Notes under the pieces: generated by a model
What the model saw: only the letters and a program-made list of their open reading frames with translations
What the model was told of the DNA's origin: nothing
Databases searched by the model: none
Position numbers and translations under genes: made by a program
Source: Planctomycetaceae bacterium
GTDB lineage: Bacteria; Planctomycetota; Planctomycetia; Planctomycetales; Planctomycetaceae
Reading direction: 5' to 3'
Assembly (NCBI GenBank): GCA_900299185.1
Contig: OMIV01000249.1
Location: 1-64,000, forward strand
DNA: 64,000 nt
Shown: one piece after another, positions 9,198 to 35,458 of the stretch
Layout of the letters: each line of letters starts with the position of its first letter
Numbering within the stretch: position 1 is the first letter of the stretch

Positions 9198-9701
9198 ATG
9201 AAGACCTTTCACGGACACGGCATTCAGTTTCAATACATTCCGAATTGGGAGCTCACCTCAGACGTTGGCTCAGACCGAATCGACATCTCAATTCTCGGCC
9301 CAGGTACTGCCATGTGGATGCTAAGCATCTTCAGAAACCGCAACTCCCCTGATGAACTGGTCAGCGAGGTTGTTGGCTCCTTTAAGGATGAGTACCCCTC
9401 GTGCGACGTATATGAAAGCAATGAAGCGATTTGCCTTTTGCCAACAACCAGCAAGGATCTCGACTTCTTTCATCACGACCTAATTAACCACGTCTGCATT
9501 CGAGCGTGCGAAGGAGATACCGAATCCTACTTGCTTGTTTATCAAGTCGCAGAGATCGAAAAGGATGAGATCCTTCCGATCTTGGCCCATATGACCGACA
9601 GCCTCATGACTGAAGATCCGTTAGAAGATGACGAGGACGTCAGTGACCTCGCTCCCTACCGTTTTCACAACCTGTTTGCTGAACCTGACGATCCGAAATG
9701 A
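9198..9701 (+). CDS. Hypothetical protein (acidic, 167 residues)
   Basis: Unrecognised conserved-looking protein. The start is set at the ATG at 9198 (MKTFHGHGIQFQYIPNWEL); an in-frame ATG at 9147 is possible, while upstream parts of the frame overlap the alkyltransferase-like gene on the other strand and look like non-coding translation. It has a mixed alpha/beta pattern, no signal peptide or transmembrane segment, and a strongly acidic stretch near the end (EDPLEDDEDVSDL). It runs into the 5' region of xseA with only about 70 bases between, so they may be cotranscribed. Confidence 0.65.
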   Translation: MKTFHGHGIQFQYIPNWELTSDVGSDRIDISILGPGTAMWMLSIFRNRNSPDELVSEVVGSFKDEYPSCDVYESNEAICLLPTTSKDLDFFHHDLINHVCIRACEGDTESYLLVYQVAEIEKDEILPILAHMTDSLMTEDPLEDDEDVSDLAPYRFHNLFAEPDDPK

Positions 9702-9773
9702 TGCTTGTTTTCCGAGAATTCTGATCGAATGCAGCCAACACGAGTCGGTGGTCCCTTTCAACAAGTTCTCTGC

Positions 9774-11018
9774 ATGAGTCTCTTGCCCCAAGTACATCCG
9801 CAAACAGTCTCGGAACTCACTCACGAACTCAAAGACCTTGTCGAAGCCAACCTAGATACGGTGTGTGTCTGCGGTGAGATCTCTAATTGTAAAGCTGCAA
9901 GTTCAGGACACGTTTACCTCACGCTTAAGGATGACGCCGCGCAACTCGCTGCGGTTATTTGGCGATCTACCAGTGCCCGACTTTCTTTTCGATTACAGGA
10001 CGGTTTGCAGGTCATTGCGATCGGTAGCGTCGAGGTCTATCCAGCGAGAGGTACCTACCAACTCATTGTCAGCAGGTTGTTTCCACAAGGACTTGGAGCA
10101 CTGGAACTCGCTCTACGTCAACTTCGCGACAGGCTCGCAGCTGAGGGACTTTTTGACCAAGAGCGAAAGCGGCTGCTTCCGCAGCTACCGAAACGAATTG
10201 CACTCGTGACGAGTCCCTACGGAGCCGCCGTTAACGACATGCTGCAGGTCATCACGCGACGATGGCCTGCCGCGAACATTGTGATTGTCCCGGTGGCAGT
10301 ACAAGGTGAATCAGCTCCGGGCGAGATTGCTGCGGCCGTGAGATTTCTTCACCAGATCCCTGATGTCGATGTCGCCATTGTCGGACGAGGCGGCGGCAGC
10401 ATCGAAGACTTGATGGCGTTCAATTCTGAAGTCGTGGCACGAGCAATTTCTCAATGCGGCGTGCCCGTGATCAGTGCAGTAGGTCACGAAATTGATGTCA
10501 CCATTGCCGATCTCGTGGCAGATCGGCGAGCACTAACCCCCAGCGAAGCCGGTGAGCTTGTCGTCCCTAATCTTGCGGATGTCCGCTCGTTACTTGAATC
10601 ACTTGAATCACGACTCGTTGCCGGACTAAAGGACAAAGCGGTCACAGCTCGTTTGCGACTAGATGCGGTTGCCTCACGACCGGTCCTAGCGAATCCGGGA
10701 CAGCGTATCCGTCAGTTGGCCGAGGAAACCGACGATCTCGACGAACGAATCAAGAAAGCCATGCAGCAACGTCTGGAAGCTGCGCGACAACAAATGACTG
10801 CACTGAGCCAATCCCTCGACGCATTGAGTCCGCTTGCCGTTCTCGGCCGCGGCTACTCAGTCACTTTTCGCAATGAAGCACAATCTGGAGTCGCGGTACA
10901 ACGAGGAAACCTTGTCCGGCGAGCTGATGAAGTCGCCGCAGGTGACGGATTAATTACCTACCTCGAGCACGGTCGCGTTTTAAGTCGCGTCGAGAAGATT
11001 GAGCCGAATTCAGACTGA
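9774..11018 (+). CDS. xseA: Exodeoxyribonuclease VII large subunit
   Basis: Catalytic subunit of exonuclease VII, which degrades single-stranded DNA in repair. The N-terminal OB fold is at residues 5-100 (CVCGEISNCKAASSGHVYLTLKD). The core follows with IALVTSPYGAAVNDM, VGRGGGSIEDLMAFNSE and VISAVGHEIDVTIADLVADRRA, which are the family signatures. A coiled coil lies at about 260-360, and GRGYSVTF stands near the C-terminus. The ATG at 9774 gives the normal N-terminus; a TTG at 9705 and an ATG at 9729 are alternatives. The small subunit gene xseB, often adjacent, is absent; the next gene is convergent and ends seven bases away. Confidence 0.94.
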   Translation: MSLLPQVHPQTVSELTHELKDLVEANLDTVCVCGEISNCKAASSGHVYLTLKDDAAQLAAVIWRSTSARLSFRLQDGLQVIAIGSVEVYPARGTYQLIVSRLFPQGLGALELALRQLRDRLAAEGLFDQERKRLLPQLPKRIALVTSPYGAAVNDMLQVITRRWPAANIVIVPVAVQGESAPGEIAAAVRFLHQIPDVDVAIVGRGGGSIEDLMAFNSEVVARAISQCGVPVISAVGHEIDVTIADLVADRRALTPSEAGELVVPNLADVRSLLESLESRLVAGLKDKAVTARLRLDAVASRPVLANPGQRIRQLAEETDDLDERIKKAMQQRLEAARQQMTALSQSLDALSPLAVLGRGYSVTFRNEAQSGVAVQRGNLVRRADEVAAGDGLITYLEHGRVLSRVEKIEPNSD

Positions 11019-11024
11019 CTTCGC

Positions 11025-12002
11025 TCAGTGCCGACTGCGAATGTCTGCCGCGACATCGTCGATAATCGCATCCATATTGAGTGTCGGAGTCCAACCGATC
11101 GTCGCACGAATCTTGTCGATCGACGGCACACGGCGGCGCATGTCTTCAAAACCGTCTCCGTAGACTTCCATGTACGGCACGCTCTTGACCTGCGACGTGC
11201 TCGCCAACCGCGTAACAACTCGTTCGGCCAATTGCCGAATGCTGAGTTCCTCGGTACAGCCAACGTTAAAGACTTGCCCGAAACAATGACCGTGATCAAC
11301 GAGTTGAATCAATGCTCGGACCACGTCTGCGACATGGCAAAAGCAGCGAGATTGTTCGCCATCTCCATGAACTTCGAGATCAGCGCCGTTCAAGGCTCTC
11401 TCAACGAAATTCGGGACGACCATCCCATACTGACCGCGCTGGCGAGGCCCAACGGTGTTGAACAACCTTACGATCACGACCGGCAGCCGGGTCTCTTTCC
11501 AATGCGCGAGAGCCAGGAATTCATCAAGCGCTTTGGCACACGCATAAGCCCAACGATGTCGAGTCGTCGCCCCCTCGACCCGATCATCGTCTTCGCAATA
11601 AGGAACCTTGTCAGACTTCCCATAGACCTCGGACGTTGAAGTAATGAGCACTCGATTGCGATAGCGCCGCGCCAGCCGCAGGACGACCTCAGTGCCTTGG
11701 TAAATCGTGTCGATAGTTGCAACGGGCTGCTCCATGATGAGCTTCACGCCGACAGCACTCGCCAGGTGATAGACAGTGCCGCATTCCATCATCAGCTTCT
11801 CGGTCAACGCAACATGCTGAATCGTGTCGACGTACAGCCGGAAGTTGGGATCACTCTCCAGATCCGCGACATTGGCATGCAAACCGGTCGACAAGTTGTC
11901 GATCACCGACACCTTCCGTCCCGTCTTCAGCAGTGCCCGAGCGAGGTGGCTTCCGATGAACCCTGCACCGCCAGTAATCAGGACATGATCTTCGCGTCGC
12001 AT
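11025..12002 (-). CDS. NAD-dependent nucleotide-sugar epimerase/dehydratase
   Basis: Extended short-chain dehydrogenase acting on a nucleotide sugar. The NAD-binding motif GGAGFIGSH is at residues 11-19, the catalytic YxxxK at Tyr153-Lys157 (YACAK) with Ser in TSTSEVYG, and VGPRQRGQYGMVVPNF is the substrate-loop region typical of the UDP-sugar group. CFCHVADVVRAL supports this. At 325 residues it is close to UDP-glucuronate decarboxylase and UDP-glucose 4-epimerase lengths; the exact substrate cannot be read. It is a single minus-strand gene, convergent with xseA and divergent from the next gene, suggesting its own promoter in 12003-12203. Confidence 0.88.
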   Translation of the reverse strand: MRREDHVLITGGAGFIGSHLARALLKTGRKVSVIDNLSTGLHANVADLESDPNFRLYVDTIQHVALTEKLMMECGTVYHLASAVGVKLIMEQPVATIDTIYQGTEVVLRLARRYRNRVLITSTSEVYGKSDKVPYCEDDDRVEGATTRHRWAYACAKALDEFLALAHWKETRLPVVIVRLFNTVGPRQRGQYGMVVPNFVERALNGADLEVHGDGEQSRCFCHVADVVRALIQLVDHGHCFGQVFNVGCTEELSIRQLAERVVTRLASTSQVKSVPYMEVYGDGFEDMRRRVPSIDKIRATIGWTPTLNMDAIIDDVAADIRSRH

Positions 12003-16512: not shown

Positions 16513-19500
16513 CTATTCCCGGCGGCGGCTGAGGGCGGTGATGGCCAGCACCAGCACGTAAGCAGCGAGCGACCACAAGGCTGCCCGGAATGCTGGGAGT
16601 GGTGAGTCCAGGATGGTTGGTGCCTCAACGGCTTTGACAACGAAGGCTTCTTTCGCGGGAGACTTCTCGATCGGTTCGGGGGCTGGCGGGCTCGTCGAAG
16701 CGGCAGTGGGCAATGTCGGCGAGTCTTCCGATGCCGTGGGCAGGCCGACGAGGCCGCCTATGTCCCAGAGTCTCACGCGTCGGTCCATGCCGACACTGGC
16801 GATGCGGCTGCCGTCCGGGCTGAAGCACACTCCATCAACCGCGTCCGAATGGCCGTTGAGCGCGTAGACGGGCTCGCCGGTTTGGGCATCGCGGAGCTTC
16901 CACGTGTGGTCCCAACTTCCACTCACAAGATGCCGACCGTCCGGGCTGAATTGGACCGACCGAACATTGCTGACGTGGTCCGTGAGCGTCTGCAGGCACT
17001 CGCCGGTGTGAACGTTCCAGAGTTTGATCGTCTTGTCGTCGCTCGCACTGGCAACCCGCTGCCCGTCGGGGCTGAAGGCGACTTCATTCACGAATCCCGT
17101 GTGGCCGGTGAGTGTCCGCAGCGACTGGTCTTTTTCGGTGTCCCAGATTCTCACGGTCATGTCATCGCTGCTACTCGCAATGTGCTTTCCGTCGCGGCTG
17201 AAGACAGCTTGATTCACCAAGACTGAGTGTCCCTCATAGGTGCGGATCAACTTGCCGGTCGACACGTCCCACAGCTTCATCGTCTTGTCCTTGCTGGTCG
17301 TCAGGACTTGCTGGCTGTGGGGGTGAAACGCGATTCCCGAGACCAGATCTGTGTGACCTTCAAACGTCCGCTGCAACACACCCGTTTGAGCATCCCAGAG
17401 CTTGGCCGTCTTGTCCTCACTGGCGCTCGCGATCCATTTGCCATCGAGGCTGAACGCCACCCGCCGCACAGCCCCCTTGTGCCCCTGAAGCGTCCGCACG
17501 ACTTCGCCCGTGCGGGCATTCCAGACAGAGATCAGCCCATTCACGTTGCCGGCCGCTAACTGTTGTCCGTCAGGGCTGAACGCCACGCTGAATGCCGCGC
17601 CGGAGTCTTGGCTTGTCGAGCCCACTGCACTCACTCGTGCCCAAGCTCTGCTTCCTGTTTTCACAGACGGCTCGCGACTGGTCTTTGCGGTGGCAGTTCG
17701 ATCGGGTGGACTTGAGGCAGAGCCTCTCGGACTTGCGTATTCTGGCAGAGCCTGGGAACGAGCAGTGGTGAGCGTCTCCTGTCCCGTCGCGGCATCCCAC
17801 ACCTTCATCGTGTTGTCATCGCTGCCGCTGACGATCCGCTGCCCGTCCGGGCTGAAACTCACGCTATTCACAGGCTCCGAGTGACCTTTGAGCGTGAGCG
17901 TCTCCTGTCCCGTCGCGGCATCCCACACCTTCACCGTCTTGTCATCGCTGCCGCTGACGATCCGCTGCCCGTCCGGGCTGAAACTCACGCTATTCACAGA
18001 GCCTGAGTGACCTTTGAGCGTGAGCGTCTCCTGTCCCGTCGCAGCATCCCACACCTTCAACGTGTTGTCAGCGCTGCCGCTGACGATCCGCTGCCCGTCC
18101 GGGCTGAAACTCACGCTCGACACATAGCCCGAGTGACCTTTGAGCGTGAGCGTCTCTTGTCCCGTCGCGGCATCCCACACCTTCACCGTGTTGTCCAAGC
18201 TGCCGCTGACGATCCGCTGCCCGTCCGGGCTGAAACTCACGCTATACACATAGCCCGAGTGACCTTTGAGCGTGAGCGTCTCCTGTCCCGTCGTCGCATC
18301 CCACACCTTCACCGTCTTGTCAGAGCTGCCGCTGACGATCAGCTTCCCATCCGGACTGAAACTCACGCTACTCACCCCGTTCGAGTGACCTTTGAGCGCG
18401 AGCGTTTCCTGTCCCGTCGCCGCATCCCACACCTTCACCGTGTTGTCATGGCTGCCGCTGACGATCCGCTTCACGTCCGGGCTGAAACTCACGCTCATCA
18501 CCCAGTTCGAGTGACCTTTGAGCGTGTGATGTGGCGGACTGACGCGGCGATCGAGGTAGCCATACTCCCAGCCGCGTAAGTCCCAGCGTGTTTCATCCAA
18601 GCGCTGCCGTGCGAGGCCAAAACCCGGTTTCTCACACTCACGATCGGCATTCACGATTTGGTTGGCATACAGCCGGACGTTGGAGAGGTGCTCGGACTTC
18701 TTAGCCGCCGCTTGTGCCTTGAGCGCGACTGCCGATTGTTCCAGGGCCTCGACTGCGCTCTCGGCGGCTAACTGCGCCGCCTTGTCGGCTTCTGCCTTCT
18801 GAGTCTTGGCTTCGCTCTCTTTCTGCTTGGCCTTGCCTTCGCTCTCGACTGCTCGCGCCGTTGCTCGCTTGGCGTCCCACAGGCTGTTGAGCGAGATCAG
18901 CAAGCAGATCGCGGCGACGACCGTCGCAATCAACGCGGCTTTGCGTTGCTTGCGGAGTCGCTCGGTGGCGGCGAGGGCTTCTCGCTTTTGATCTTCAATG
19001 TGCTGGCGGCTGTCGCTGATGAGTTTCAAACACGCGGGCAAATCGTCCGTCGCCGAACTCGTGCGATCATCATAACGCTGAGCCCAACGCACGCTCGGCT
19101 GGCTTTGAGTCTGCCAGTTCTGAGCGAGCTCCAGATGAGCTTCGCTCAGGAACTCGGCCTTCTGAGTGGCTCGCACACGGCGGACGATGGCGCGGAGTTC
19201 ACGGTAACGCTCGACGGATTTGGCTTCGTCTTCCATCCACGTCTGCAGAATCCGCCATTGCCGCAAGAGACTCTCGTTGCTGATGTCGAGCACGGTTGTC
19301 GGTGTTAGTGATTGGAGGCCGTGCTGTGGTTGCCCCTCACCCCCGGCCCCTCTCCCTGTTCCAAGTAGGCCCAGCGGGGCGAGGGGAGAATTTGCGGTTG
19401 TGGGTTCACTCAGTGGGGGCAGTAAGAAGTTGCGGTCGTCCGATTGAAAGGCGCGGACGATCTTTTCGATCTGCTCGCAACTGGCCTGAGCGACTTCCAT

Positions 19501-20712
19501 CACCTCTTGCACCAGCGGACGCCGCCGCGTGATCTGGCCCTCGGCAGAGGTATCGCACAACAGCAAGAACATGTGCCGCGCGATCCGCTGCTCGGCTTCA
19601 CCGAGCGAGTTCAACGCCGTGGTGGCATCGTTCGACAGAGCCTTCTCGATACGCCCGGCTTTGGTGTAGTCGTCGAAAGTCAGGCGTCGTCGGTTGGACT
19701 CGGCTGAAATGGAACTCGCTATAGACGAGTGATGAGTTGGCTCGACCAAAGTAGCCGTCATCGCTCCGCGTGACGTGCCTTCCACGTTGGAGTTTGAACC
19801 AGTGGTGATGTTCGTTGGCAGATGAAACGTCTGGGAGGAAGGCTCATCACGCGGAGCGGTGATGGCTACCTGGCTCAGCTTCCAAGTCCGCATCAGCGCG
19901 TGCTGCAACAGCGGCAGTTGGTCGGGGCGGTCTCCGGCTTCGTTGATCAGCGTGTTGACCAAACCGGGCTCGAAGTCGAAGGCTGCAAACTTCGCATCTC
20001 GATGGCGAATGCGACTCGGTCCCGTGATGGCTTCTTCCATCTGGCTGCGAGTCAATCGCGGCACCAAGAACTGAGACTGACTCACCGCCTGCGGCAACCC
20101 TAAGAAGACTTCGCAGTCTCCCACGAAGTCCGAGCGCATCGTGATGATCACACGCAAATGCTCGTCGGCCTTCCGCATTGAAGTCAGCAACATCGCGACG
20201 AACGCCGCCGACTCGTCGCGCGATGCGTAACTCTGAGAGCGATGCTCCGTCGCGCCACTACGGCGGAAACCAAACAACTCTTCGAACTGATCAATGACGA
20301 TCAGCACGTGCGGGGCACCAGCAGCTCGCAACCAATCGACGACCCGGAGCAAACCGTCGTCAGAGCTGCGCAGCAACGAGAGGATCTCGTCAAACGGCAG
20401 CGACCTATTCAGCTTCGAGAGTTCACAAGCCAAGTTTTGATAGGGGTCGTTTCCAGGCCGAGCGACGGCGATTCTGGAATACTCGGTCCCGAACAAGAAC
20501 CCCTGACGCAACAACGGCAACAGCCCCGCGCGCACCAACGATGACTTGCCCGAACCACTGGATCCGACGACCGCCACGAAGGCGGAATCTTCCAACCGCA
20601 TGAGCAACTCATTGGCTTGCTGGTCACGACCAAAGAACAGCACATGATCCGGTTCATCGAACGGTCGCAAGCCGGGATACGGAATCGACAAGTTGAGTTT
20701 TTGATCGCTCAC
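16513..20712 (-). CDS. STAND NTPase-WD40 receptor-like protein
   Basis: 1399 residues in a clear order. Residues 10-430 form an nSTAND-type NTPase: opening PYPGLRPFDEPDHVLFFGRD, Walker A GSSGSGKSS near 50-58, Walker B HVLIVIDQFEELF near 135. A helical part leads to a transmembrane segment at about 592-612 (AALIATVVAAICLLISL), an Ala/Lys/Glu coiled coil (615-680), then 13 recognisable WD40 blades from about 727 to 1340 (likely two propellers), and a final hydrophobic segment near 1372-1392. The first six blades are near-identical. The gene starts with GTG, and its start overlaps the stop of the TIR gene as GTGA, so the two are translationally coupled. By analogy with NLR/STAND proteins it is an ATP-switched sensor. 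Two palindromic repeats lie inside the frame (17634-17762, 19333-19386). Target unknown. Confidence 0.9.
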   Translation of the reverse strand: MSDQKLNLSIPYPGLRPFDEPDHVLFFGRDQQANELLMRLEDSAFVAVVGSSGSGKSSLVRAGLLPLLRQGFLFGTEYSRIAVARPGNDPYQNLACELSKLNRSLPFDEILSLLRSSDDGLLRVVDWLRAAGAPHVLIVIDQFEELFGFRRSGATEHRSQSYASRDESAAFVAMLLTSMRKADEHLRVIITMRSDFVGDCEVFLGLPQAVSQSQFLVPRLTRSQMEEAITGPSRIRHRDAKFAAFDFEPGLVNTLINEAGDRPDQLPLLQHALMRTWKLSQVAITAPRDEPSSQTFHLPTNITTGSNSNVEGTSRGAMTATLVEPTHHSSIASSISAESNRRRLTFDDYTKAGRIEKALSNDATTALNSLGEAEQRIARHMFLLLCDTSAEGQITRRRPLVQEVMEVAQASCEQIEKIVRAFQSDDRNFLLPPLSEPTTANSPLAPLGLLGTGRGAGGEGQPQHGLQSLTPTTVLDISNESLLRQWRILQTWMEDEAKSVERYRELRAIVRRVRATQKAEFLSEAHLELAQNWQTQSQPSVRWAQRYDDRTSSATDDLPACLKLISDSRQHIEDQKREALAATERLRKQRKAALIATVVAAICLLISLNSLWDAKRATARAVESEGKAKQKESEAKTQKAEADKAAQLAAESAVEALEQSAVALKAQAAAKKSEHLSNVRLYANQIVNADRECEKPGFGLARQRLDETRWDLRGWEYGYLDRRVSPPHHTLKGHSNWVMSVSFSPDVKRIVSGSHDNTVKVWDAATGQETLALKGHSNGVSSVSFSPDGKLIVSGSSDKTVKVWDATTGQETLTLKGHSGYVYSVSFSPDGQRIVSGSLDNTVKVWDAATGQETLTLKGHSGYVSSVSFSPDGQRIVSGSADNTLKVWDAATGQETLTLKGHSGSVNSVSFSPDGQRIVSGSDDKTVKVWDAATGQETLTLKGHSEPVNSVSFSPDGQRIVSGSDDNTMKVWDAATGQETLTTARSQALPEYASPRGSASSPPDRTATAKTSREPSVKTGSRAWARVSAVGSTSQDSGAAFSVAFSPDGQQLAAGNVNGLISVWNARTGEVVRTLQGHKGAVRRVAFSLDGKWIASASEDKTAKLWDAQTGVLQRTFEGHTDLVSGIAFHPHSQQVLTTSKDKTMKLWDVSTGKLIRTYEGHSVLVNQAVFSRDGKHIASSSDDMTVRIWDTEKDQSLRTLTGHTGFVNEVAFSPDGQRVASASDDKTIKLWNVHTGECLQTLTDHVSNVRSVQFSPDGRHLVSGSWDHTWKLRDAQTGEPVYALNGHSDAVDGVCFSPDGSRIASVGMDRRVRLWDIGGLVGLPTASEDSPTLPTAASTSPPAPEPIEKSPAKEAFVVKAVEAPTILDSPLPAFRAALWSLAAYVLVLAITALSRRRE
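17634..17762. repeat. Palindromic element inside the STAND-WD40 gene
   Basis: CTCGTGCCCAAGCTCTG at 17634-17650 pairs at 15 of 17 positions with CAGAGCCTGGGAACGAG at 17746-17762, with an inner GAGGC/GCCTC hairpin at 17714-17726. The 129-base block equals 43 codons and interrupts the WD40 series between blades 6 and 7, where the protein becomes low-complexity Ser/Ala/Arg/Thr. It looks like an intergenic-type repeat that landed in-frame. Confidence 0.7.
17755..18530. repeat. Tandem 126-bp repeats (six WD40 blades)
   Basis: The block GTGACCTTTGAGCG recurs at 17881, 18007, 18133, 18259, 18385 and 18511, exactly 126 bases apart. Each unit encodes a 42-residue blade with the pattern GHS..V.SVSFSPDG....VSGS.D.T.KVWD. 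Differences between units concentrate in a few codons after GHS and in the loop before KVWD. Confidence 0.93.
19333..19386. repeat. C/G-rich palindrome inside the STAND-WD40 gene
   Basis: CCCCTCACCCC at 19333-19343 pairs at 10 of 11 positions with GGGGCGAGGGG at 19376-19386. The segment translates to NSPLAPLGLLGTGRGAGGEG, the kind of peptide produced when widespread GGGGAGAGGG-type intergenic repeats are read through, and sits in a loop of the NTPase-to-transmembrane helical region. Confidence 0.65.
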
Positions 20713-22157
20713 TTCATGGCCCTCCGCACTTCACGCACCTGCTTCACGAAATCTCGCAGGCCGTTCTCAAGGTCATCACCCAGCACACGATGCAGGCACT
20801 TGGGAGTGCTCTTGAGCAATCGCGACCAAGCCGGATCGGGAGGGGCTCGAAACACCACACCAACAGGCGGCAGTTGCTCCAACGCTTGTTGTGAAAGCTG
20901 AGTTTGAATCTGTCGGCATTGCGACAGTGCCTCGCGCGGTGAGAACGCATCGTCAATCTGCGCCCTCTCATCACAGAGGATTAAGAACCCGTGACACGGC
21001 TCGCCCGGTTGCTTGCTGGCAAAGGAGTCATTCGGTCCGAGTTCATCCAAGAGCACATCCTCTTCGAGAAAGAGGTAGTTGAAGACCGGCTCCCAGATGT
21101 CATTTCCGTTACCCGCCTTCACAGCCACTCGCACGAGCGGTTGACTGTCTGCATCGGTCGACTCGGCTGCTTCGACGGGCAACCGACTTCGATTATCCGC
21201 TTCTTGGAATTGTCGCACGGCAGCTCGTTTAGCTTCGGCCAGCTCTTTGAGTTTCTCTTCGAGCGTGTGCTTAAAGTCTTGAAACTGCCCGGCGATTGGT
21301 GCGGTGCGTTCGATGAATAGGCGCTGCTTCTCGTCGGCTCGATTCGCCGTGAGGATGTCGCCACAGAAGCAGAACGAGGGCAGCTTCAGCTCTTGCGCAG
21401 TGTCGAATTGCAGTTGGTCGTACTTCGCGCCTTTCCAATACTTCTCCGAGTGCAACTGCACGAAGGCCAAACAGCCCGCGAGTTGAGATCGCACGGCTGC
21501 CGCAAACTCATCGGAGTCGAGTTCAGAGAGATCCTGATCAGGGACGACGCGGAATTCAGGATTCATGTCGGGTGCGATGAAGCGCTTCAGCTTCGGGTTG
21601 CAGATCAGCTCATCGTCGTCTTCGAGATCGAAAGTTTGAGCTAGAAACACACGCGGCAAACCGGCACCGGGAACGAAGCGCCGGACTCGCTCGACAATCT
21701 GCTCGGCGAGGTATCGCGGCGTGCGTTGACGGGCATCAAACCAGATCGCGTTTGCCAATAGTCCCTGCACTTCGCCATCGGCAACTCGAATGGGAACAAG
21801 TCGATCCGATTCACCGTCACCGCGTGCTCGCAGCGGCATGTATCGAGCTCGAATGCTGTCCCATTCAGCGACGGTCCAAGACTTCTTTCCATACTCCGCC
21901 GACGGGCACATCACGACGACCTCTGATCGTTCGCCGTAGATCTCTTGCAGCTTCAGATCGGCTGACGTCCCAGCCAAAAAGCCTTCGTACCATTCGTCAT
22001 AGAAGACAGTGCCCCAGCCAAGAATTTGCTCGGTGGCTTCGGCGATGGTACGGACGAGCTCGCGTTGCTCGCCGGCGAAGGAAAAGGCAACGAGGAATTT
22101 CTCGTCGCCCTGCGGGACAGGTCGCAGTTCAGGCATGGCCCAGGTCTCGAAACGCAT
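20709..22157 (-). CDS. TIR-domain protein coupled to the STAND receptor
   Basis: 482 residues from the ATG at 22157 (22136 is an alternative; the frame opens further upstream only with a TTG). Residues 20-150 form a TIR_2-type domain: KFLVAFSFAGEQRELV, VFYDEWYEGFLAG, VVVMCPSAEYGKKSWTVAEWDSIRARY. Glu98 in WTVAEW sits where NADase TIR domains have their catalytic Glu. Two further segments look like diverged TIR/Rossmann folds: about 172-320 (VFLAQTFDLEDDDEL, VVPDQDLSEL, CLAFVQLHSEKYW) and about 345-475 (LVRVAVKAGNG, GFLILCDERA). No signal peptide or transmembrane segment. TIR proteins either cleave NAD+ or act as adaptors; here the partner downstream is the STAND-WD40 protein. Activity is inferred. 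Confidence 0.82.
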   Translation of the reverse strand: MRFETWAMPELRPVPQGDEKFLVAFSFAGEQRELVRTIAEATEQILGWGTVFYDEWYEGFLAGTSADLKLQEIYGERSEVVVMCPSAEYGKKSWTVAEWDSIRARYMPLRARGDGESDRLVPIRVADGEVQGLLANAIWFDARQRTPRYLAEQIVERVRRFVPGAGLPRVFLAQTFDLEDDDELICNPKLKRFIAPDMNPEFRVVPDQDLSELDSDEFAAAVRSQLAGCLAFVQLHSEKYWKGAKYDQLQFDTAQELKLPSFCFCGDILTANRADEKQRLFIERTAPIAGQFQDFKHTLEEKLKELAEAKRAAVRQFQEADNRSRLPVEAAESTDADSQPLVRVAVKAGNGNDIWEPVFNYLFLEEDVLLDELGPNDSFASKQPGEPCHGFLILCDERAQIDDAFSPREALSQCRQIQTQLSQQALEQLPPVGVVFRAPPDPAWSRLLKSTPKCLHRVLGDDLENGLRDFVKQVREVRRAMK

Positions 22158-22760
22158 TTTGGTCGGGAGTGAGTCTTGTTCGTAATGCAGTCGGGAGGTC
22201 AGCTTCAAGACTGTGGTCAACGTCGCAAGCTCTAACTTGGCCGACGCGAGCAGGCCGACGGAGCGACGAGTCAAACCCAAACTGCCTTGCGAACGTGCAG
22301 GGAACTTTGGTGAGCAACCTGCGGTCTCGCCAGCGATGCCGGTCTCTGTTTTTGATCAGCGATGCGATGGGACCAGCGCGATGAGTTTGGTGGGGCTGAG
22401 ATTCAGGCGGAACTCGTGGGGCACGTTTTCAACGTGCCTCTAAGCGAGGGAATCGAGCACGTTGGAAACGTGCTCCACGCGGTCGGTTAGCTAGGTCTGG
22501 TTTCTCGTCTGTGAACGTTATTGGGGGGCTCGCGTCGGGCTGCCAATTGGAACGTCGAGTTGCTCTTCTGACGTTGCTCACATGCGCCGTTTGGTAGGAC
22601 TTCGACCTGCATGACAACTTAAGAAATCGGCAGGTTAAAAACCTGCCCCACGATGAAACGCGACTCTGGTTGGAAACGTCCAACCTGGGAAAAGACGCTG
22701 CAAGAATTTTGACAGGCTGGAAGCCTATCCCACTTCGGGGACCAGCACTTCGCTACTCGG
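22158..22760. other. Intergenic region with short hairpin repeats
   Basis: No gene seen. Three near-perfect short hairpins occur: 22420-22438 (GGCACGTT, loop TTC), 22455-22475 (GAGCACGTT, loop GGA) and 22629-22647 (GGCAGGTT, loop AAA), plus a weaker one near 22711-22730. They share the plan of 8-9 base arms around a three-base loop. Since the flanking genes are both on the minus strand, the hairpins lie between the ECF sigma gene end and the TIR gene start and may terminate the kinase/sigma operon. Confidence 0.65.
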
Positions 22761-24121: not shown

Positions 24122-27100
24122 TCAGCGTACTTCAACATCCGACCGATGGCCGAGTTCCAGGGACACGTTGCGAAACTCGATCCACTGATAGCGGCGCGAC
24201 TGCACGTGGAACTTGCGGATCGTTTCGAACTCCTCGCGCGGCATCGTCATCAACGAGTGGGTCAGATTGTTAGTCGTCTCAGAGCCTTCACCTTTGAGAA
24301 CTTCGATCGAGCCGTCGTTGCGTTCGTAGACCAGCCGAGTTTCGTAGTCGTCTCTCCTAGAGTAACTGAAGGCCAACGGAATGCTGTCACCGACCGCTCG
24401 GATGGTCCGCACGGAACCCGTCCAGCTTCCATTGGAGTTCGACGAACTGGCACCGTGCTGCTGCTGATTCTCGTGCCGATCGAACGACAGCTTTGACTGC
24501 CAAGAACCATCGGCGACTCCGACTTCGAACGTCGTTTCGCGAGCTTCTGGCGAGCAGGCGATTGTGCTGACAAGCACTCCAAACGGTTGCCTGACATCGG
24601 GCTGCCGAAAGGACGTGCCCTGCCCCCAGATACCCGAGTTCGGCGCGAACCTCAGCACCGGCACCGACGACGACTTCGTATCGCTGTGAACTCGGACGAC
24701 CAGTTCCTTCATCACCTTTCCCGACGCCCAACTGCTTCCGCCCGCTTCGGGCACGTTCGGTTCGGTGATCAGCTCGCCGTTGGGCTTCCAGTGCGGCTGG
24801 TCCTTTGCGGGATGAGAACCCAGCGCGAACAGTTCGACCTTGCCTTGATCGTAAGCGCCTTCGAATAAGCCAACAGACCGAACAGCGGGAGCTTCGAACT
24901 GCTTGTAATGAGGTCCGCCATAGATGCTGACGAGTGACTCGGGACTCTGGCCTTCAGGGAGCATCATCAAGCTTGCCGACACGTTGATGAAGTTCTCGGT
25001 CGTGTATGCCAGCAAGGTCCGACCACGATTCGGACCGGCCTCGAAGACGATGCCATCTTGATCCGGCAGCGAGGCTTCCATGTTACGCCGTCCTTGCTCC
25101 GTCGTCGGTAATTCGCCCAAGGGAATGGAGATGCGATTGCGGCCTTCGAGCTTCACTTGAGAGCGTTCGATGATGCGCGGTGCGGGATCACCGAGCTGAT
25201 ACTCGCGATGTTGTACTAGATACTTCTCGACGATCAGCCACATCGATTGGCCGGGAGTCTTCTCCACGGTGTAACTGAAGTTGAAGTGGCCGTTCTCGAC
25301 CTGCGCGTCGCGGCTCGTGACCTTCATGGTCGTTGTGTCATGAGTCAGCAAAATGGACAGGACCACGAGAGCAATGGCAATCACGGAGACCACCCGGAAC
25401 CCGTCTCGCCGGCGGCGGATAAGAGTTCCATCCAGGGCGGCACCGCCACTGGCAGCCGTCATTCTCGAACGAGCTTGCCACAAGACGACGCTCGACCACA
25501 GCGGACACGCGGCAAGAACAACTGCAGGCACAGTGATGCTCCACGTGATTCCATTCATCGCAACCGCGCCTGCCAGGACGCCATTACCGACTCCAACTAG
25601 GAAGCCCATCAGCAGAAATGTCTCGATGATACCGCCGACAGCAACGAGTCTCAGAAACTTGAAGAGCGACTCATTCGATGCATCTGAGTTCTCACTCTGC
25701 GTCTGCTTCAGTCGGCTCGACACCCACAGCCCGGCCATGACGGACGAGCCCAGCAAGAACACGGTGAGCAGCAACCATTCGAGGTCATACCGCACTCGAA
25801 TCTCAGTGGCTTTGATCGACACCGTTCCCAACAACAACCCCGTCACGAACCACACCATCGACGCCGCGATCGCAATCTTGTGGCGTTGTGCTTTCTGATC
25901 CGTGAGTCGTCTCGGCGATGTGGGGTCGCTACGACGATGCCGGTGCTCGGCGATCACGGCGAACCCCAGCAGTCCAAAGAAGCCGAAGAACCCCGAGAAG
26001 CCCATCGCTCGTTCCAGACCGGGCAGAAAACTGAGGAAGCACAACGAGCCCAAGAACCCGAGATGTGCCCACTGGTAAAACCGCCTTGCCCAGATCGATT
26101 GAAAGCCAGCCGGCATTAGCAGCATTAATCCCTGAACATCGCCCGAGACCGCTTCGGGACTCGCACCAGACTCAGCAGTTGCTGCGGGGTAATGCCGATC
26201 TCGCCGTCGCATCAACCAAGCAAACGTCACTGGAATAAGAATTCCCAACAACGGAGTCAGTGCCGCCAACAGTGGAAACATTCCCATCCCGCCCGACATC
26301 CGAATTGGACCTTCGGCACTCGTCGCCCACCTGAAGATGACGAACTGAAAGACGACGACACTCAGCACCAACAGACACAGCAAGGCCAGACCTTTAGCTC
26401 TGCTTATCGGCGCGCCGATGTCAGTCACGGTAGATCGCTCCAGAGCACGCCCCGTCGCAGTCTCCACCGCAGAGCGAATGGCCTCGAACCACCCGGCCAC
26501 TGCAGAATTGAATTGCTGAGGAGTCGCAAACACTCCGCAGTGTGGCGAAAAGTACAACGTCTCCAGTCGACCTTCGACTTCGTAAGCCACGCTGATGAAG
26601 TCGAGCCCCATCGGATTCACCATCGCTGGATAGCGTCCGATGCCCAGAGCCCGAATCGACCCGAGCGGCATCCCATACGCTTTCGCGCCGCGAGTGACGC
26701 TGAGCTGCCGATCGTCCAACACCAACTGCCCAACATTCCGCCACAAGAAGAACTGTCCGGCGAAGGTCGCCAACTGTGTCGGAGTTGTGACATGGCAGCG
26801 AGTCGTTCGCGGAACACCGGCGGGCTTCGGAGCATCTGTCGGAGCCATCAAGCGTGTGGGAGTGCGAACCACTCCTTCCACCTGCTGACGAAACTCCGTC
26901 GCCGTGTGAAACCGCAACTCGGGCTTTGCATCGAGTGCTCGCAAGACGATCTCATCCAGTCGCACATCGATCTGCACTTTCCGCGAAGGGGGCTGCAAGT
27001 TCGGTCCGGGGACTTCGCCGGTCAGCATCTCATACAGCACAACGCCGAGCGAAAAGATGTCCGCTCGATGATCGACCGACGCAGGCTGCTCGCGCTGCTC

Positions 27101-27865
27101 GGGTGCCATGTAACGCGGCGTTCCGACAACCGACTGCTGAGTCAGATCAATCTCGTTGCTTGCGTCTGACGACGCCTCTGTGACCTCCGGTTGAGCCACA
27201 GCATCAGTGCCGCGCCGCAACATCCGCGCGATCCCAAAGTCTGCGATCTTCACGCGACCGGCTTTATCGAGCAGCAGGTTCTCGGGCTTGATATCGCGAT
27301 GCACGATGCCACGGTCATGAGCGAACTGCAGGGCCTCACAGATCGGCGGCACGATCGCGAGTGCTTCTTCGGGACTCAGCCGCCCGGCGTTCATGGCCTG
27401 CCGCAAACTGACTCCGTCCACGAACTCCATCAGCAGGTAATAAAAACTGCCGGCCCTGCCAAAGTCATGCACGGTGACAATGTTGGGATGGTTCACTTCG
27501 GCCAGCGCTTGGCCTTCCCGCGAAAGCCGTTCGGCGAAGTCTGGGTTGTCCGCCAACTGAGGCGCCAAGATCTTGAGCGCAACCAATCGTCCCAACGACT
27601 TCTGGCGAGCTTTGTAGACCGCCCCCATCCCGCCTTGCCCCACGAGTTCCAGCACATTCAACTGCTCGAACGACGGAGCCAGCTCTTCCGCACTCGGCGG
27701 CACCCACGGGGTATTCGGCAAGCTGTCCACGCCCGTGCCAAGCGCCGCTGCTCGCAGCAAGCAAGCCGGACAACAACCGCCAGCAACTCCAACATCGACC
27801 ATCGCCCCGCAACGTGGGCAGTTCGATCGTGACTCGGCAGCAGCAGATGAAGAAGTCGCATTCAT
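24122..27865 (-). CDS. Ser/Thr protein kinase with zinc ribbon and multi-pass membrane tail
   Basis: 1247 residues from the ATG at 27865. A zinc ribbon opens the protein (Cys16, Cys19, Cys31/32, Cys35). The kinase domain runs from about 70 to 340: glycine loop VGQGGMGAVY, Lys98 in VALKIL, HRDIKPENLL at 189-198, DFGIARM at 209 and APEQREQP. Residues about 480-900 contain some eight to ten hydrophobic segments, and the C-terminal 330 residues form a soluble beta-rich domain likely outside the membrane. Pattern and neighbours fit the planctomycete kinase-ECF sigma units, in which the kinase is thought to activate the sigma factor. It is first in the operon with the small membrane protein and sigma gene. 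Confidence 0.9.
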   Translation of the reverse strand: MNATSSSAAAESRSNCPRCGAMVDVGVAGGCCPACLLRAAALGTGVDSLPNTPWVPPSAEELAPSFEQLNVLELVGQGGMGAVYKARQKSLGRLVALKILAPQLADNPDFAERLSREGQALAEVNHPNIVTVHDFGRAGSFYYLLMEFVDGVSLRQAMNAGRLSPEEALAIVPPICEALQFAHDRGIVHRDIKPENLLLDKAGRVKIADFGIARMLRRGTDAVAQPEVTEASSDASNEIDLTQQSVVGTPRYMAPEQREQPASVDHRADIFSLGVVLYEMLTGEVPGPNLQPPSRKVQIDVRLDEIVLRALDAKPELRFHTATEFRQQVEGVVRTPTRLMAPTDAPKPAGVPRTTRCHVTTPTQLATFAGQFFLWRNVGQLVLDDRQLSVTRGAKAYGMPLGSIRALGIGRYPAMVNPMGLDFISVAYEVEGRLETLYFSPHCGVFATPQQFNSAVAGWFEAIRSAVETATGRALERSTVTDIGAPISRAKGLALLCLLVLSVVVFQFVIFRWATSAEGPIRMSGGMGMFPLLAALTPLLGILIPVTFAWLMRRRDRHYPAATAESGASPEAVSGDVQGLMLLMPAGFQSIWARRFYQWAHLGFLGSLCFLSFLPGLERAMGFSGFFGFFGLLGFAVIAEHRHRRSDPTSPRRLTDQKAQRHKIAIAASMVWFVTGLLLGTVSIKATEIRVRYDLEWLLLTVFLLGSSVMAGLWVSSRLKQTQSENSDASNESLFKFLRLVAVGGIIETFLLMGFLVGVGNGVLAGAVAMNGITWSITVPAVVLAACPLWSSVVLWQARSRMTAASGGAALDGTLIRRRRDGFRVVSVIAIALVVLSILLTHDTTTMKVTSRDAQVENGHFNFSYTVEKTPGQSMWLIVEKYLVQHREYQLGDPAPRIIERSQVKLEGRNRISIPLGELPTTEQGRRNMEASLPDQDGIVFEAGPNRGRTLLAYTTENFINVSASLMMLPEGQSPESLVSIYGGPHYKQFEAPAVRSVGLFEGAYDQGKVELFALGSHPAKDQPHWKPNGELITEPNVPEAGGSSWASGKVMKELVVRVHSDTKSSSVPVLRFAPNSGIWGQGTSFRQPDVRQPFGVLVSTIACSPEARETTFEVGVADGSWQSKLSFDRHENQQQHGASSSNSNGSWTGSVRTIRAVGDSIPLAFSYSRRDDYETRLVYERNDGSIEVLKGEGSETTNNLTHSLMTMPREEFETIRKFHVQSRRYQWIEFRNVSLELGHRSDVEVR

Positions 27866-28248
27866 AGCGAGATCGTACCTCAGCAGAGAGTTCTTGCAGT
27901 CCCGCAGCACACGACTCACATCGCACACCGCACCACTGCCAGTACCTGAGGAATCCCGCTTCGCTGGTTACAAGATTCTTTGAGGAATCTGGAGCACTCC
28001 CCATCGGGCTTCCAGCCATGACTACACCCGACGATGCGATGGCTCGTCCTGACATCCGACCTACTCAATCCCTTCAACAATCGTCATGAGGCCGCAACTC
28101 TGCCTTTTGGAGTGCCGCTGCGTCGCGGTCTGAGGTCTGTTGCTTTACGTTGCGGTGGATGGGCTTTTCCATCTGCGGCCAGCGGCGAGACAGGGTCTGT
28201 GTCGCACGAGTTGAGTGTCAGTGAGTTTCAACCAGGAGAGCGTTCAGA
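27866..28248. other. Divergent intergenic region
   Basis: Lies between the kinase start (minus) and the monooxygenase-like gene (plus). No gene seen. It should contain promoters in both directions, but I could not pick a reliable pair. AGGAGAG nine bases before the ATG at 28249 is the ribosome-binding site of that gene. Confidence 0.5.
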
Positions 28249-31283: not shown

Positions 31284-34200
31284 CTATTTTTCCAAGCCCG
31301 CGAGAACGAATTGCCGAGCCGACTCGGAGTCGAAGCGGGCATACGAAGTCAGACGCTTTTGATCGAGTGCCAAGAGCCGGCCATCGGACGAGTCGGGCTT
31401 ATTGCCAATGCGTTTTTCGAAGTCTTGGTTCTTCTCGCGAACCGCCAGACGTCCCGCTTCAAACGCACCGACTGCTGCTTCGGGGAGCTGAGCCATCGTG
31501 CTATCGAGCGTCTTCAGCAGGCCGGCATCCGGTCGCTTCAACTCATCCACAATGCTGCCCGCGAACTCGCGCAAGCGTCCGGCGAACTCAAGCTGTCGTT
31601 TGATGGAGTCGTCGATCTCGGTGGCTTCGGGCAACGCTTTGACTTGTTCCGCCATTCGCTGCATCTCGGCCACAGACTCTCGATACCGGCCCGAGTAAGC
31701 ATGCAGCCAAGCCAGCCCTTCGTAGCTCAATCGAATCGACGGATGGGACAGCTTCACCTGCTCGAAGTACTTCTGCGCATCCTTGTCGTCGTTGCGAACT
31801 TTCAATCGCAACACCGCAAACGCGAGCTTGCCATCCGGCTCATCGCCAGTCGCCCGAGCTGCCGCCAAGAACTCGCTCGCCAACTGCGACTCGGAAGCGG
31901 CCGTAAATTTGGTGACACCCCAATGGTTCGCGAAGAGACCTCGCACGGCGTCCTTCGCCTCGGGACTCAACCGATCCTTCTCCGGCGGAGCATCATTCGG
32001 ACGGAACAAGACGGGAGTTTGTTTGAGAACTTGGTTGCGTCCCTTGTGAGTGAACTCCACCTCCGCCATCTGTGTGACGAGATCATCAAACAGTTCGGTC
32101 GGTTCCAGATGCACGTCAGCGTTCTTGTCACCTTTGCCGGAGAACGCGCGAGCAACGAACCACCCGAAGACTCCGTGCTGCTTCTCGGAACTGATCAAGC
32201 CTCGTTGCCCATCGTTGCAACTGGCAATCGCCCAGGTCTTGCGAAAGACATCAGGGTCTTTGGCTGGCCTAAGCGCCTGCAACATCGTCTCGCTGGCGGG
32301 CTGCTGCTTCAGATCGAGCCCGTCCCCCAAGTGCGACACATCGAACAACAAAACCTTCTCTGCGGCGACACAGTCTTCCAACTGCTGCCGCAACCAACTC
32401 AACGACAAGCCCGTTTCTTTGACGCGCGTTAAGTCGAAATCCTTGGCGGCGTAATACGGCTGATTTTGATCGTCGACGTAGGCATTGCCGACGACATACA
32501 CCAACAACTGGCTTTGAGCATTGGTCCGCTTCAGCCAATCGGGCATCGCTTGAGTCAGCCGGATGCTGGTCTCATCAGTCAACAACACAGTGCGATCGCG
32601 CGAGCAGCCATATCGGCTCAGCAAGGTGTCGTGAACCAGCTTGGCATCGCTGACGGCATACGGCAGCTTCGTCAGCTTGTTGTCGTCATACGCTTGATTG
32701 CCGATGACGATCGCAAAGCGATTCTCAACCTCGGGCCGCAGCGCATCGATGACAGAGATTTCAGCTTGCACATTGGCGCTGTCATACGTGATCTCGATCC
32801 GATCATTGCGCCGCAGGTCAGAGAGTTCCGCCTCGGTGTTGTTAATTGTTACAGCGGTCTTCTTGCCAATCACAAAGGCTCGCCGTTCGCCTTTCTCATC
32901 TCCAGCCACGAGCGCGGACGCCCCCAAATTCACATCCAGCACCACGCCCTTATGCAGCGACATTCTCAACGCGTGCACTTCAATGACATCGCGATGATGC
33001 ACGATCGACGCTCGATCGCCCGGCTGCAGGTCGGCGACCTTAAGGAGCTTGCCTTCCACAATCTGCTTGCCGTTGACCGTCACGTTGCAGTCGATCGCCG
33101 ACGGCATCGCAACCAACTTGGTCCCGTACGTCCTGCGAACTTCCAGAGTGATCGTGCCTTTGTTGATGTCGCGCACGAAGCCATCGAGCTTGCGCTTTTG
33201 CAGTGCCTCAATCCGAGTCGCGACCCGCTTATCACCCAGATTCGGATCGGGGATATGTCGCAACGTGACGCGATCTTCGTCCTTGAGTTCCTCAAGCGTG
33301 CCAGTTTGACCGTTGATGGTGATCTCGGTCCGAGTATTTGTTCGCACGGCGAGTTCGCCGCGCTGCGAGCCCTCGGTGATCTGAACTCGGAACTCGCCAA
33401 TCTGCGACTGCAGCGCCGTCACCAATCCGGTGCTCTCATCCGGACGAGCGACCTTGAGATCTAAACGAGCATGGCCGTCATCGTCCTTGCCCTTCGAAAT
33501 GACGACTTGATCTCCGGGTTCGAGATCGCGCGGCAAGATGAAGTTCTTGTTGTTGAGCAAGATGCGCGGAGCATTCCCAAGCTTGATCTCCTTGGGTTGC
33601 CCATCCGCCTCTTGCTCCAGCACGAGGACGTTTTCATCGACATGCACATGCCTGACGACACCGCGATCGGGCTCGTTCGACTCGGCAACTTTTTCGATCG
33701 GCTTCTCTCCCGATGGCATGAACAACATGGCCAGGCTTAGCAGCAGACTCATGCTGAAGGCCACGATCGCAATCGTGCGTTGCTTGTTCTTGGGTTCGGG
33801 TTTGGGAGCTTCCTCACCGCCCTGCTTGATGATCTTCACATCAATGTTGAGATCCGACAGAGCCTCATCCGCCGTCGCATAACGCAGCGATTGGTCCTTC
33901 TCACACAGGCGCGTCACCACCGTCGCAATGTCGTCTGGCACACCTTCGAGCACTCGTCGGATCTCAGGCAATTTCCGATCGTTGGCAGCGTGCCACATCA
34001 TCCACGCAATCTGCTTATCGCGACCAAAGGCGGTTAGCCCTGGGAAGAGATTGCTGAAATTCGGTCCGCAAAGTAGTTCAAACGCCGCGAAGCCCAATGA
34101 GTACAAGTCCGACGCCGGGCCAACATCGCCCCATTCATCCGAGACGGTCTCAGGGGCCATGTATTTTGTAGTACCCTTGAGCAAGCTGCCGTCTTCATCG

Positions 34201-34655
34201 CTGACGCGTCGAGCCAATCCGAAGTCGCCAATTTTCACACGCTTTCGCGAGTCGATCATCATGTTCGTCGGCTTGATGTCGCCATGCACGACGCCACGAC
34301 CATGCAGGTACTTCAAAGCACGCAAGCAATGGGCCAGCGCGGTCCGCACCGATGAAATATCCATCGGCTCTTTGGAGATACGATCCGCAAGCGTGCCTTG
34401 CATCAGCTCCATGATCAGCCAGCCGCGCTGCCGATCGATGTCGAAGAACGTGATGATGTTGGGGTGCTGCAACGAGGCGAGCAGTTGAGCTTCCTGCCAA
34501 TAGCGATCCATCTGCTCCGGCAAGTGCAGGTACTGCTCATGAATTTGCTTGATCGCGACCTCGCGATTGAGTTCGTTATCTCGAGCGCGATAGACCGTCG
34601 CAAAGCTGCCCGTCCCTACTCGCTCCAGCAGTTCATATCGCGAATCCCGACTCAC
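31284..34655 (-). CDS. Ser/Thr kinase fused to a caspase-like domain (degenerate active site)
   Basis: 1123 residues from the GTG at 34655 (GGGGAG eight bases upstream; a GTG at 34664 is possible). Kinase domain, residues 7-265: glycine loop VGTGSFATVY, Lys36, DFG at 144-146 and APETVSDEWG. The catalytic loop reads HGD (124-126) instead of HRD. A transmembrane helix follows at about 297-317. Residues 340-630 hold several small beta modules with the pattern GxVxDVNxGxxxL and LQPGDR. A caspase-like (peptidase C14) fold covers about 640-885: NRFAIVIGNQAYDD, DAKLVHDTLLSRYGC, and QALRPAKDP. The His site reads YVVGNAYVDD and the Cys site FDVSHLGDG, so both catalytic residues appear replaced. The C-terminal 230 residues are helical repeats. 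Extracytoplasmic sensing coupled to a kinase is an inference. Confidence 0.85.
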   Translation of the reverse strand: MSRDSRYELLERVGTGSFATVYRARDNELNREVAIKQIHEQYLHLPEQMDRYWQEAQLLASLQHPNIITFFDIDRQRGWLIMELMQGTLADRISKEPMDISSVRTALAHCLRALKYLHGRGVVHGDIKPTNMMIDSRKRVKIGDFGLARRVSDEDGSLLKGTTKYMAPETVSDEWGDVGPASDLYSLGFAAFELLCGPNFSNLFPGLTAFGRDKQIAWMMWHAANDRKLPEIRRVLEGVPDDIATVVTRLCEKDQSLRYATADEALSDLNIDVKIIKQGGEEAPKPEPKNKQRTIAIVAFSMSLLLSLAMLFMPSGEKPIEKVAESNEPDRGVVRHVHVDENVLVLEQEADGQPKEIKLGNAPRILLNNKNFILPRDLEPGDQVVISKGKDDDGHARLDLKVARPDESTGLVTALQSQIGEFRVQITEGSQRGELAVRTNTRTEITINGQTGTLEELKDEDRVTLRHIPDPNLGDKRVATRIEALQKRKLDGFVRDINKGTITLEVRRTYGTKLVAMPSAIDCNVTVNGKQIVEGKLLKVADLQPGDRASIVHHRDVIEVHALRMSLHKGVVLDVNLGASALVAGDEKGERRAFVIGKKTAVTINNTEAELSDLRRNDRIEITYDSANVQAEISVIDALRPEVENRFAIVIGNQAYDDNKLTKLPYAVSDAKLVHDTLLSRYGCSRDRTVLLTDETSIRLTQAMPDWLKRTNAQSQLLVYVVGNAYVDDQNQPYYAAKDFDLTRVKETGLSLSWLRQQLEDCVAAEKVLLFDVSHLGDGLDLKQQPASETMLQALRPAKDPDVFRKTWAIASCNDGQRGLISSEKQHGVFGWFVARAFSGKGDKNADVHLEPTELFDDLVTQMAEVEFTHKGRNQVLKQTPVLFRPNDAPPEKDRLSPEAKDAVRGLFANHWGVTKFTAASESQLASEFLAAARATGDEPDGKLAFAVLRLKVRNDDKDAQKYFEQVKLSHPSIRLSYEGLAWLHAYSGRYRESVAEMQRMAEQVKALPEATEIDDSIKRQLEFAGRLREFAGSIVDELKRPDAGLLKTLDSTMAQLPEAAVGAFEAGRLAVREKNQDFEKRIGNKPDSSDGRLLALDQKRLTSYARFDSESARQFVLAGLEK

Positions 34656-34819
34656 GGCTTGCACTCCCCGATGATGGCTCAGTTGATGGCGGCGACTGTT
34701 CGTAGTTTCGGCAACAGCAGGTCATGGCACCGCCATGTGATCCTACGAATGAGTTCCGTTCGTCTTATCATACGGCCAATGAATTCACCCCTGCCATCGA
34801 ACGCAGCTTTCGCGATTTA

Positions 34820-35458
34820 TCAACTTCGCAGCGTGTTGAACTGCCGATCGCCGGCATCTCCCAAACCGGGGACGATGAATTTGCGATCGTTCAAGCACTC
34901 ATCGACGGCAGCCACGACGATCTCGACATCGGGAAACGCGCGAGAGACCGCGCTCACTCCTTCAGGAGCTGCGATCAACGACACCAACTTCAACCGTTTG
35001 ACGCCCCAGCGTTTGAGCAGCGCGAGCGTATGCGTCGCCGATCCGCCGGTGGCGAGCATCGGATCGACCACAAACGCGACATCAACCGGATTATCGCGCG
35101 GCAGCTTCTGGTAGTACTCAACCGGAGTCGCAGTCGCTTCATTGCGATAGACGCCGAGATGCCAAACTTCCGCCGTCGGAATAAGGTCAAGGAACGGATC
35201 AACGAGCCCGAGCCCCGCTCTTAAGATCGGCACGAGCGCAATCCGCTGACAGAGCACCTTCGTCTTGGTCACCGCGAGCGGCGTTGTAGCCGTCGAATCG
35301 GACAACTCCAAATCGCGAGTGGCTTCGCTCGCCAGCAGAGTCGCCAGTCGATGCACCAGCGACCGAAACTCAGCGGGCGAAGTCCCGACATCGCGCAGAT
35401 GTCCGAGATGATGTTGCACAAGCGGATGTTGGCAAACTCGCAATCGTTCGGTCGTCAC
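34820..35458 (-). CDS. upp: Uracil phosphoribosyltransferase
   Basis: Converts uracil and PRPP to UMP in pyrimidine salvage. The PRPP-binding motif is FVVDPMLATGGSA, the uracil-binding C-terminal segment is FIVPGLGDAGDR, and RAGLGLVDPFLDLIP is the conserved early loop. Its 212 residues match the family. The GTG start is supported by AGAGGAG eight bases upstream. It begins 12 bases after the desaturase gene ends, so the two are probably cotranscribed, which is an odd pairing. Confidence 0.95.
   Translation of the reverse strand: MTTERLRVCQHPLVQHHLGHLRDVGTSPAEFRSLVHRLATLLASEATRDLELSDSTATTPLAVTKTKVLCQRIALVPILRAGLGLVDPFLDLIPTAEVWHLGVYRNEATATPVEYYQKLPRDNPVDVAFVVDPMLATGGSATHTLALLKRWGVKRLKLVSLIAAPEGVSAVSRAFPDVEIVVAAVDECLNDRKFIVPGLGDAGDRQFNTLRS

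Follow-up and report, generated by a model that had tools for sequence, protein, structure and literature searches.

What does a protein kinase do with a caspase fold that has lost its catalytic residues? This question is raised by one gene in a 64,000-nucleotide stretch (hereafter the window) of contig OMIV01000249.1, from a Planctomycetaceae bacterium, in which a preliminary description had recognized a kinase fused to a caspase-like domain lacking the catalytic His and Cys. The open reading frame begins with a GTG codon (Table 1); the end originally given, 34655, corresponds to a second GTG at codon 4, and either 34664 or 34655 may be the start. The encoded protein is organized sequentially in a kinase domain, one transmembrane helix, four homologous beta modules, a caspase fold and a helical tail.

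Table 1. Coordinates of the features discussed, numbered along the window, with protein residues where they apply.
Feature	Residues	Positions	Strand	Basis
Whole gene, receptor-type Ser/Thr kinase with predicted pseudo-orthocaspase ectodomain		31284..34664	(-)	1126 aa ORF; orthologs
Cytoplasmic kinase domain	8-273	33846..34643	(-)	Pfam Pkinase 10-269, 8.6e-49; conservation
HGD catalytic loop motif (non-RD)	127-129	34278..34286	(-)	92/93 members
Transmembrane helix, single	298-316	33717..33773	(-)	hydropathy scan; basic residues kinase-side
Four tandem beta modules	331-642	32739..33674	(-)	HHalign 98.6-99.2% between modules; AF2
Pseudo-orthocaspase domain	645-890	31995..32732	(-)	Pfam C14, AF2, Foldseek
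Asn at catalytic His position, motif VVGNAYVDD, codon AAT	727	32484..32486	(-)	alignment to MALT1
Ser at catalytic Cys position, motif LFDVSHLG, codon TCG	777	32334..32336	(-)	alignment to MALT1
EF-hand-like loop DKNADVHLEPTE	846-857	32094..32129	(-)	family conservation
C-terminal helical (TPR-like) tail	900-1126	31287..31967	(-)	AF2 all-helical; alignment
Uracil phosphoribosyltransferase gene, upstream		34820..35458	(-)	neighbour conservation

A hydropathy scan recovered the helix that had been placed between the kinase and the caspase-like domain, and a single helix was found in 84 of 89 family members, with Lys and Arg more numerous before it than after it in 79/87. Since the basic residues flank the helix on the kinase side, the beta modules and the caspase domain are predicted to lie outside the inner membrane, that is, in the periplasm, in an orientation that we infer from this charge distribution. 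The several small beta modules of the preliminary description resolved into four homologous repeats, modelled by AF2 as beta structure and displaying weak DUF5666/CusF-like similarity in Pfam searches of family members; when the whole ectodomain was compared with Foldseek, caspases alone appeared among the matches listed, which leaves the beta modules with no structural match among them. The C-terminal tail is absent from many relatives in the alignment, and TPR matches were obtained with Pfam in some members. In one relative (L128, genome G042), the family gene ends early at an in-frame TGA and is possibly a broken copy.

Two features expected of a receptor Ser/Thr kinase are present, namely complete catalytic residues and one transmembrane helix between kinase and ectodomain. 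The window kinase retains Lys39, Glu58, Asp129, Lys131, Asn134 and the DFG motif (147-149); Lys39 is kept in 90 of 93 members, and Glu58, Asp129 and DFG in all 93, so that a pseudokinase reading was discarded. The catalytic loop reads HGD, as had been noticed, and thus lacks the Arg that defines RD kinases, HRD being found in 15 of 16 HxD motifs at other planctomycete kinase loci. The label of atypical kinase therefore holds for the HGD motif but not in the sense of a defective enzyme, because HGD removes only the regulatory Arg, the catalytic residues being present in 90 to 93 of the 93 members. From these residues, the kinase is probably active and non-RD, and would not be expected to be switched through the HRD Arg. 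PknB and StkP were among the best bacterial solved-structure matches to the kinase domain, and these receptor kinases share with the window protein the arrangement of kinase, one transmembrane helix and repeated extracytoplasmic modules; they differ from it in carrying HRD instead of HGD, and in that here beta modules and a pseudo-caspase lie outside, with no PASTA repeats in Pfam scans of the window protein and its family members. In three genomes of one genus (g4; L181, L183 and L185), Lys39 of the VAIK motif is replaced by Arg, and the caspase His and Cys are retained (EVCS motif).

Regarding the caspase fold, Pfam assigned residues 649-886 to Peptidase_C14 (2e-7), the AF2 model of the domain reached a pLDDT of 96.3, and Foldseek against the PDB matched MALT1 (2.1e-10) as well as caspases and metacaspases; together, these analyses place the domain in the caspase-hemoglobinase fold. 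Of the structural relatives that the preliminary description had named for comparison, metacaspases were thus recovered, and EACC1 domains were not found with either Pfam or Foldseek. When the family profile was aligned to MALT1, columns 727 and 777 coincided with the His in YYAGHGYEN and the Cys in LLDMCRK, respectively, which confirms the GNA and DVSH readings made earlier at the two sites. The window protein hence lacks the His-Cys dyad of active orthocaspases and, with both dyad residues replaced in p20, where one replacement suffices, corresponds to a pseudo-orthocaspase; on this ground its caspase domain is predicted to be devoid of proteolytic activity. No other His column exceeded 50% occupancy across the caspase domain in the family alignment, therefore no alternative conserved dyad is visible, and a displaced His/Cys pair was ruled out. 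Neither of the two findings that would have overturned the earlier observation, an intact pair elsewhere or a non-caspase fold, was seen, and the residues at both sites, the AF2 model, Foldseek and the MALT1 profile agree with it.

Caspase folds without the His-Cys dyad are known from bacterial pseudo-orthocaspases (PMC6426788), and Planctomycetes are reported to have only 64% of their dyads intact (PMC3501461). The window domain shares this loss with them; however, the published variants are mainly Y/S and come from cyanobacteria and alphaproteobacteria, whereas H/S, H/T, Q/x, R/G or N/S combinations occur here, and, unlike in the published proteins, the domain forms the outer part of a membrane-spanning kinase and is associated with a Tad system.

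In order to place the window protein among its relatives, family members were gathered by searches with an ectodomain alignment, which yielded relatives in 57 of 170 genomes of the window's family and, beyond it, under three further family codes of the class (f5, f7 and f107); among the named records of a second scan were Thermoguttaceae and Pirellulales. Among the 82 non-redundant members having the caspase domain, both His and Cys are present in 12, neither residue in 17, and H/S or H/T in 37. The Cys site holds S (28), C (15), T (14) or G (9), followed by V, A, N, D, P, R and F; the His site holds H (62), Q (9) or R (5), followed by others including P, I, S, T and N. Control caspase domains, which came from relatives of the window genome or were recovered by the same searches, were aligned with the family's own HMM and kept the dyad in 37 of 38 cases, a difference from the 12/82 of the family with a Fisher p of 2e-19 that is nominal because the family members are related. 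Given the intact controls, the ancestor of the family likely carried an intact dyad. On a tree built quickly from kinase and beta-module columns only, at least 13 state changes are needed at the His site and 11 at the Cys site, and 25 events of Cys loss if loss is irreversible and the tree is taken as rooted for drawing, its root not being inferred. The dyad-less caspase domain evolves under purifying selection, with dN/dS of 0.05-0.16 within genera, a Q/D pair included. Thus, one orthologous family holds many apparently separate dyad losses under purifying selection, and constitutes a natural series for asking what a non-cutting caspase fold does. Seven members of a single clade (L162, L166, L168, L169, L171, L177 and L178) lack the caspase domain and end after the beta modules; they still lie behind Tad genes wherever the upstream DNA is known (L169 could not be assessed), which suggests that the kinase is the core of the system and the caspase an option of the ectodomain.

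Clustering of the neighbouring genes revealed Tad genes upstream of the kinase gene in relatives. TadC lies upstream on the same strand in 47 loci, 35 of which also contain an FHA-CpaF ATPase, and in these 35 the order is constant: CpaB, FHA-CpaF, TadB, TadC, a membrane FHA/zinc-ribbon protein and the kinase. According to Pfam, the ATPase combines T2SSE and FHA, TadB and TadC are T2SSF proteins, and the membrane protein beside the kinase matches FHA, YscD-cytoplasmic-like or zinc-ribbon models; CpaB, which has no Pfam match, was named by its position and CpaB-like sequence. Of the 34 distinct CpaF sequences matched by motif scan, 31 carry the FHA signature GR..VS[RK]. This linkage, seen in the loci of 47 relatives, had escaped the preliminary description; it indicates what the sensing is probably for, and makes the kinase a candidate signalling kinase for the Tad pilus. 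In the window genome itself, the kinase gene lies outside any Tad operon and the Tad parts are unlinked, with FHA-CpaF on contig C143, where GR..VSKRQA is retained, TadC on C207, TadB on C343 and the FHA adaptor on C380. The co-occurrence of kinase and FHA-CpaF holds despite this scattering: with FHA-CpaF counted at 63% identity or more, 54 of the 170 genomes of the window's family carry it, 57 carry the kinase and 53 carry both (Fisher p 5e-38, nominal, the counts running over related genomes), and outside this family, in the class sample, the same 13 genomes have kinase and FHA-CpaF.

FHA-fused CpaF proteins correspond to the class III CpaF of PMC12019362, and the Kil system of Myxococcus is a Tad-like system with an FHA-KilF, for which the authors propose an upstream signalling cascade (PMC8460266). 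In both, as here, the motor ATPase of the Tad system bears an FHA domain, and control by phospho-Thr is therefore implied. In the accessible parts of these two papers the FHA partner kinase is unnamed, whereas here a kinase is the next gene of the operon and co-occurs almost strictly with the ATPase. In Pseudomonas, the T6SS is under kinase/FHA control (cited by PMC8460266); this is a different machine for which homology is not shown, and serves as an analogy only. No paper linking a kinase-pseudocaspase to Tad was found among the open-access papers searched.

A second FHA-CpaF subtype, with an identity of at most 50%, stands clearly apart from the window type, and several of its operons carry in the same slot a kinase-like protein without the VAIK Lys and DFG. 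Those at L303 3114-5957(-), L304 11933-14872(+) and L306 6135-7964(+) resemble pseudokinases, with VAIF or VAIW for VAIK, SFS for DFG, and other ectodomains. As these proteins look catalytically dead, the role in the sister system may not need phosphotransfer. The kinase-like protein of another genome with the second subtype (L294 661-2901(-)) also looks like a pseudokinase with a different ectodomain; in it, VAVK is kept and HGK replaces HGD. Furthermore, in L306 the Tad pseudokinase is followed, 1.4 kb further on, by a caspase gene of its own (9379-11127(+)) in which GHG and DACRN are found, a split counterpart with an intact dyad.

With the integration of these findings, we consider, with a probability of about 0.6, that the window protein is a Tad (Flp, type IVc) pilus receptor kinase that senses through a pseudo-orthocaspase and acts by way of FHA domains. 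In this view it would be a single-pass receptor Ser/Thr kinase belonging to the Tad machine, its cytoplasmic domain probably being active and non-RD; the pseudo-orthocaspase would no longer cut while still folding and binding, and would probably sense a ligand or a contact. An envelope signal would alter the state of the ectodomain and, in turn, that of the kinase. The putative phospho-Thr marks that the kinase makes in the cytoplasm would be recognized by FHA domains in both the CpaF motor ATPase and the membrane adaptor, and this recognition would set pilus assembly. Such a role would specify the sensing or scaffold function first proposed, which fits both the purifying selection on a dead domain and the prediction that this domain and the kinase lie on opposite sides of the membrane. 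The sensor may also use Ca2+, as suggested by an EF-hand-like loop whose acidic ladder is kept at its key positions in about 80-81 of 82 members. Compared with DxDxDGxxxxxE, the Gly at position 6 is usually missing in the family, and Pfam gave a weak EF-hand_5 match in 1 of 45 members; the loop is also found in most of the 38 control caspase domains, therefore its retention may be structural. The reading in which the dead caspase senses outside the cytoplasm, possibly depending on Ca2+, and governs the Tad motor by means of a dedicated kinase and of FHA domains is put forward only tentatively. If true, the kinase would be the partner that FHA-fused CpaF/KilF ATPases would need, absent from the papers found, and the caspase fold would have a non-death role in bacteria; since FHA-fused Tad ATPases imply phospho-control, the kinase family offers a concrete and directly testable candidate for that partner.

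A rather unlikely account of the same data is that the pseudo-caspase senses nothing and serves as a passive module, structural or for docking, by which the kinase is anchored to Tad parts in the periplasm, as could be expected of a fold that is conserved while its active site varies, and of a domain that one clade has lost while keeping the Tad operon; the receptor-like layout, with one transmembrane helix between the domains, and the conserved acidic loop suggest more than a spacer. It is improbable that the family still consists of hydrolases, with the H/C members as working orthocaspases, the H/S and H/T members using a hydroxyl nucleophile, and targets such as pilins or the receptor itself being cleaved. 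The intact fold and the dyad states of 12 and 37 of the 82 members would agree with it, but the Cys site also holds G, V, P, D, N, F, R and A and the His site Q, R, P, I, S, T and N, and the window protein is N/S with no other conserved His/Cys pair. Moreover, replacement of the caspase Cys by Ser usually abolishes activity, which also counts against hydrolysis.

Bacterial caspases are often conflict effectors, according to PMC7159879 and PMC8195603, and PADLOC kinase models match the window protein; a cell-death or anti-phage function, as in other bacterial caspase fusions, is nevertheless very improbable, as the PADLOC models match kinase domains only generically and most members have a dead effector site. 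In addition, many relatives carry the gene within a Tad operon, and its inheritance follows that of FHA-CpaF over many genera instead of being patchy. That the domain is a relic in decay, or arose as an assembly artefact, as the varied residues at both sites and the loss of the domain in one clade might suggest, is scarcely credible and was dismissed, given the dN/dS values in dyad-less pairs and a caspase-domain reading frame that is open in 82 non-redundant sequences.

The uracil phosphoribosyltransferase gene upstream keeps its place as a neighbour in the window's close relatives alone; an operon with it was therefore set aside, and it probably lies outside the kinase system. The FAA hydrolase, desaturase, radical SAM and other window neighbours showed no conserved linkage among the loci of relatives. 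A second large kinase gene (24122-27928(-)), 3.4 kb downstream, encodes an HRD motif and several hydrophobic segments, and has no conserved link to the pseudocaspase-kinase family. Finally, a TIR_2 gene and an nSTAND1-WD40 gene (16513-20712(-) and 20709-22280(-)) overlap by 4 bases and possibly form a conflict or defence pair.
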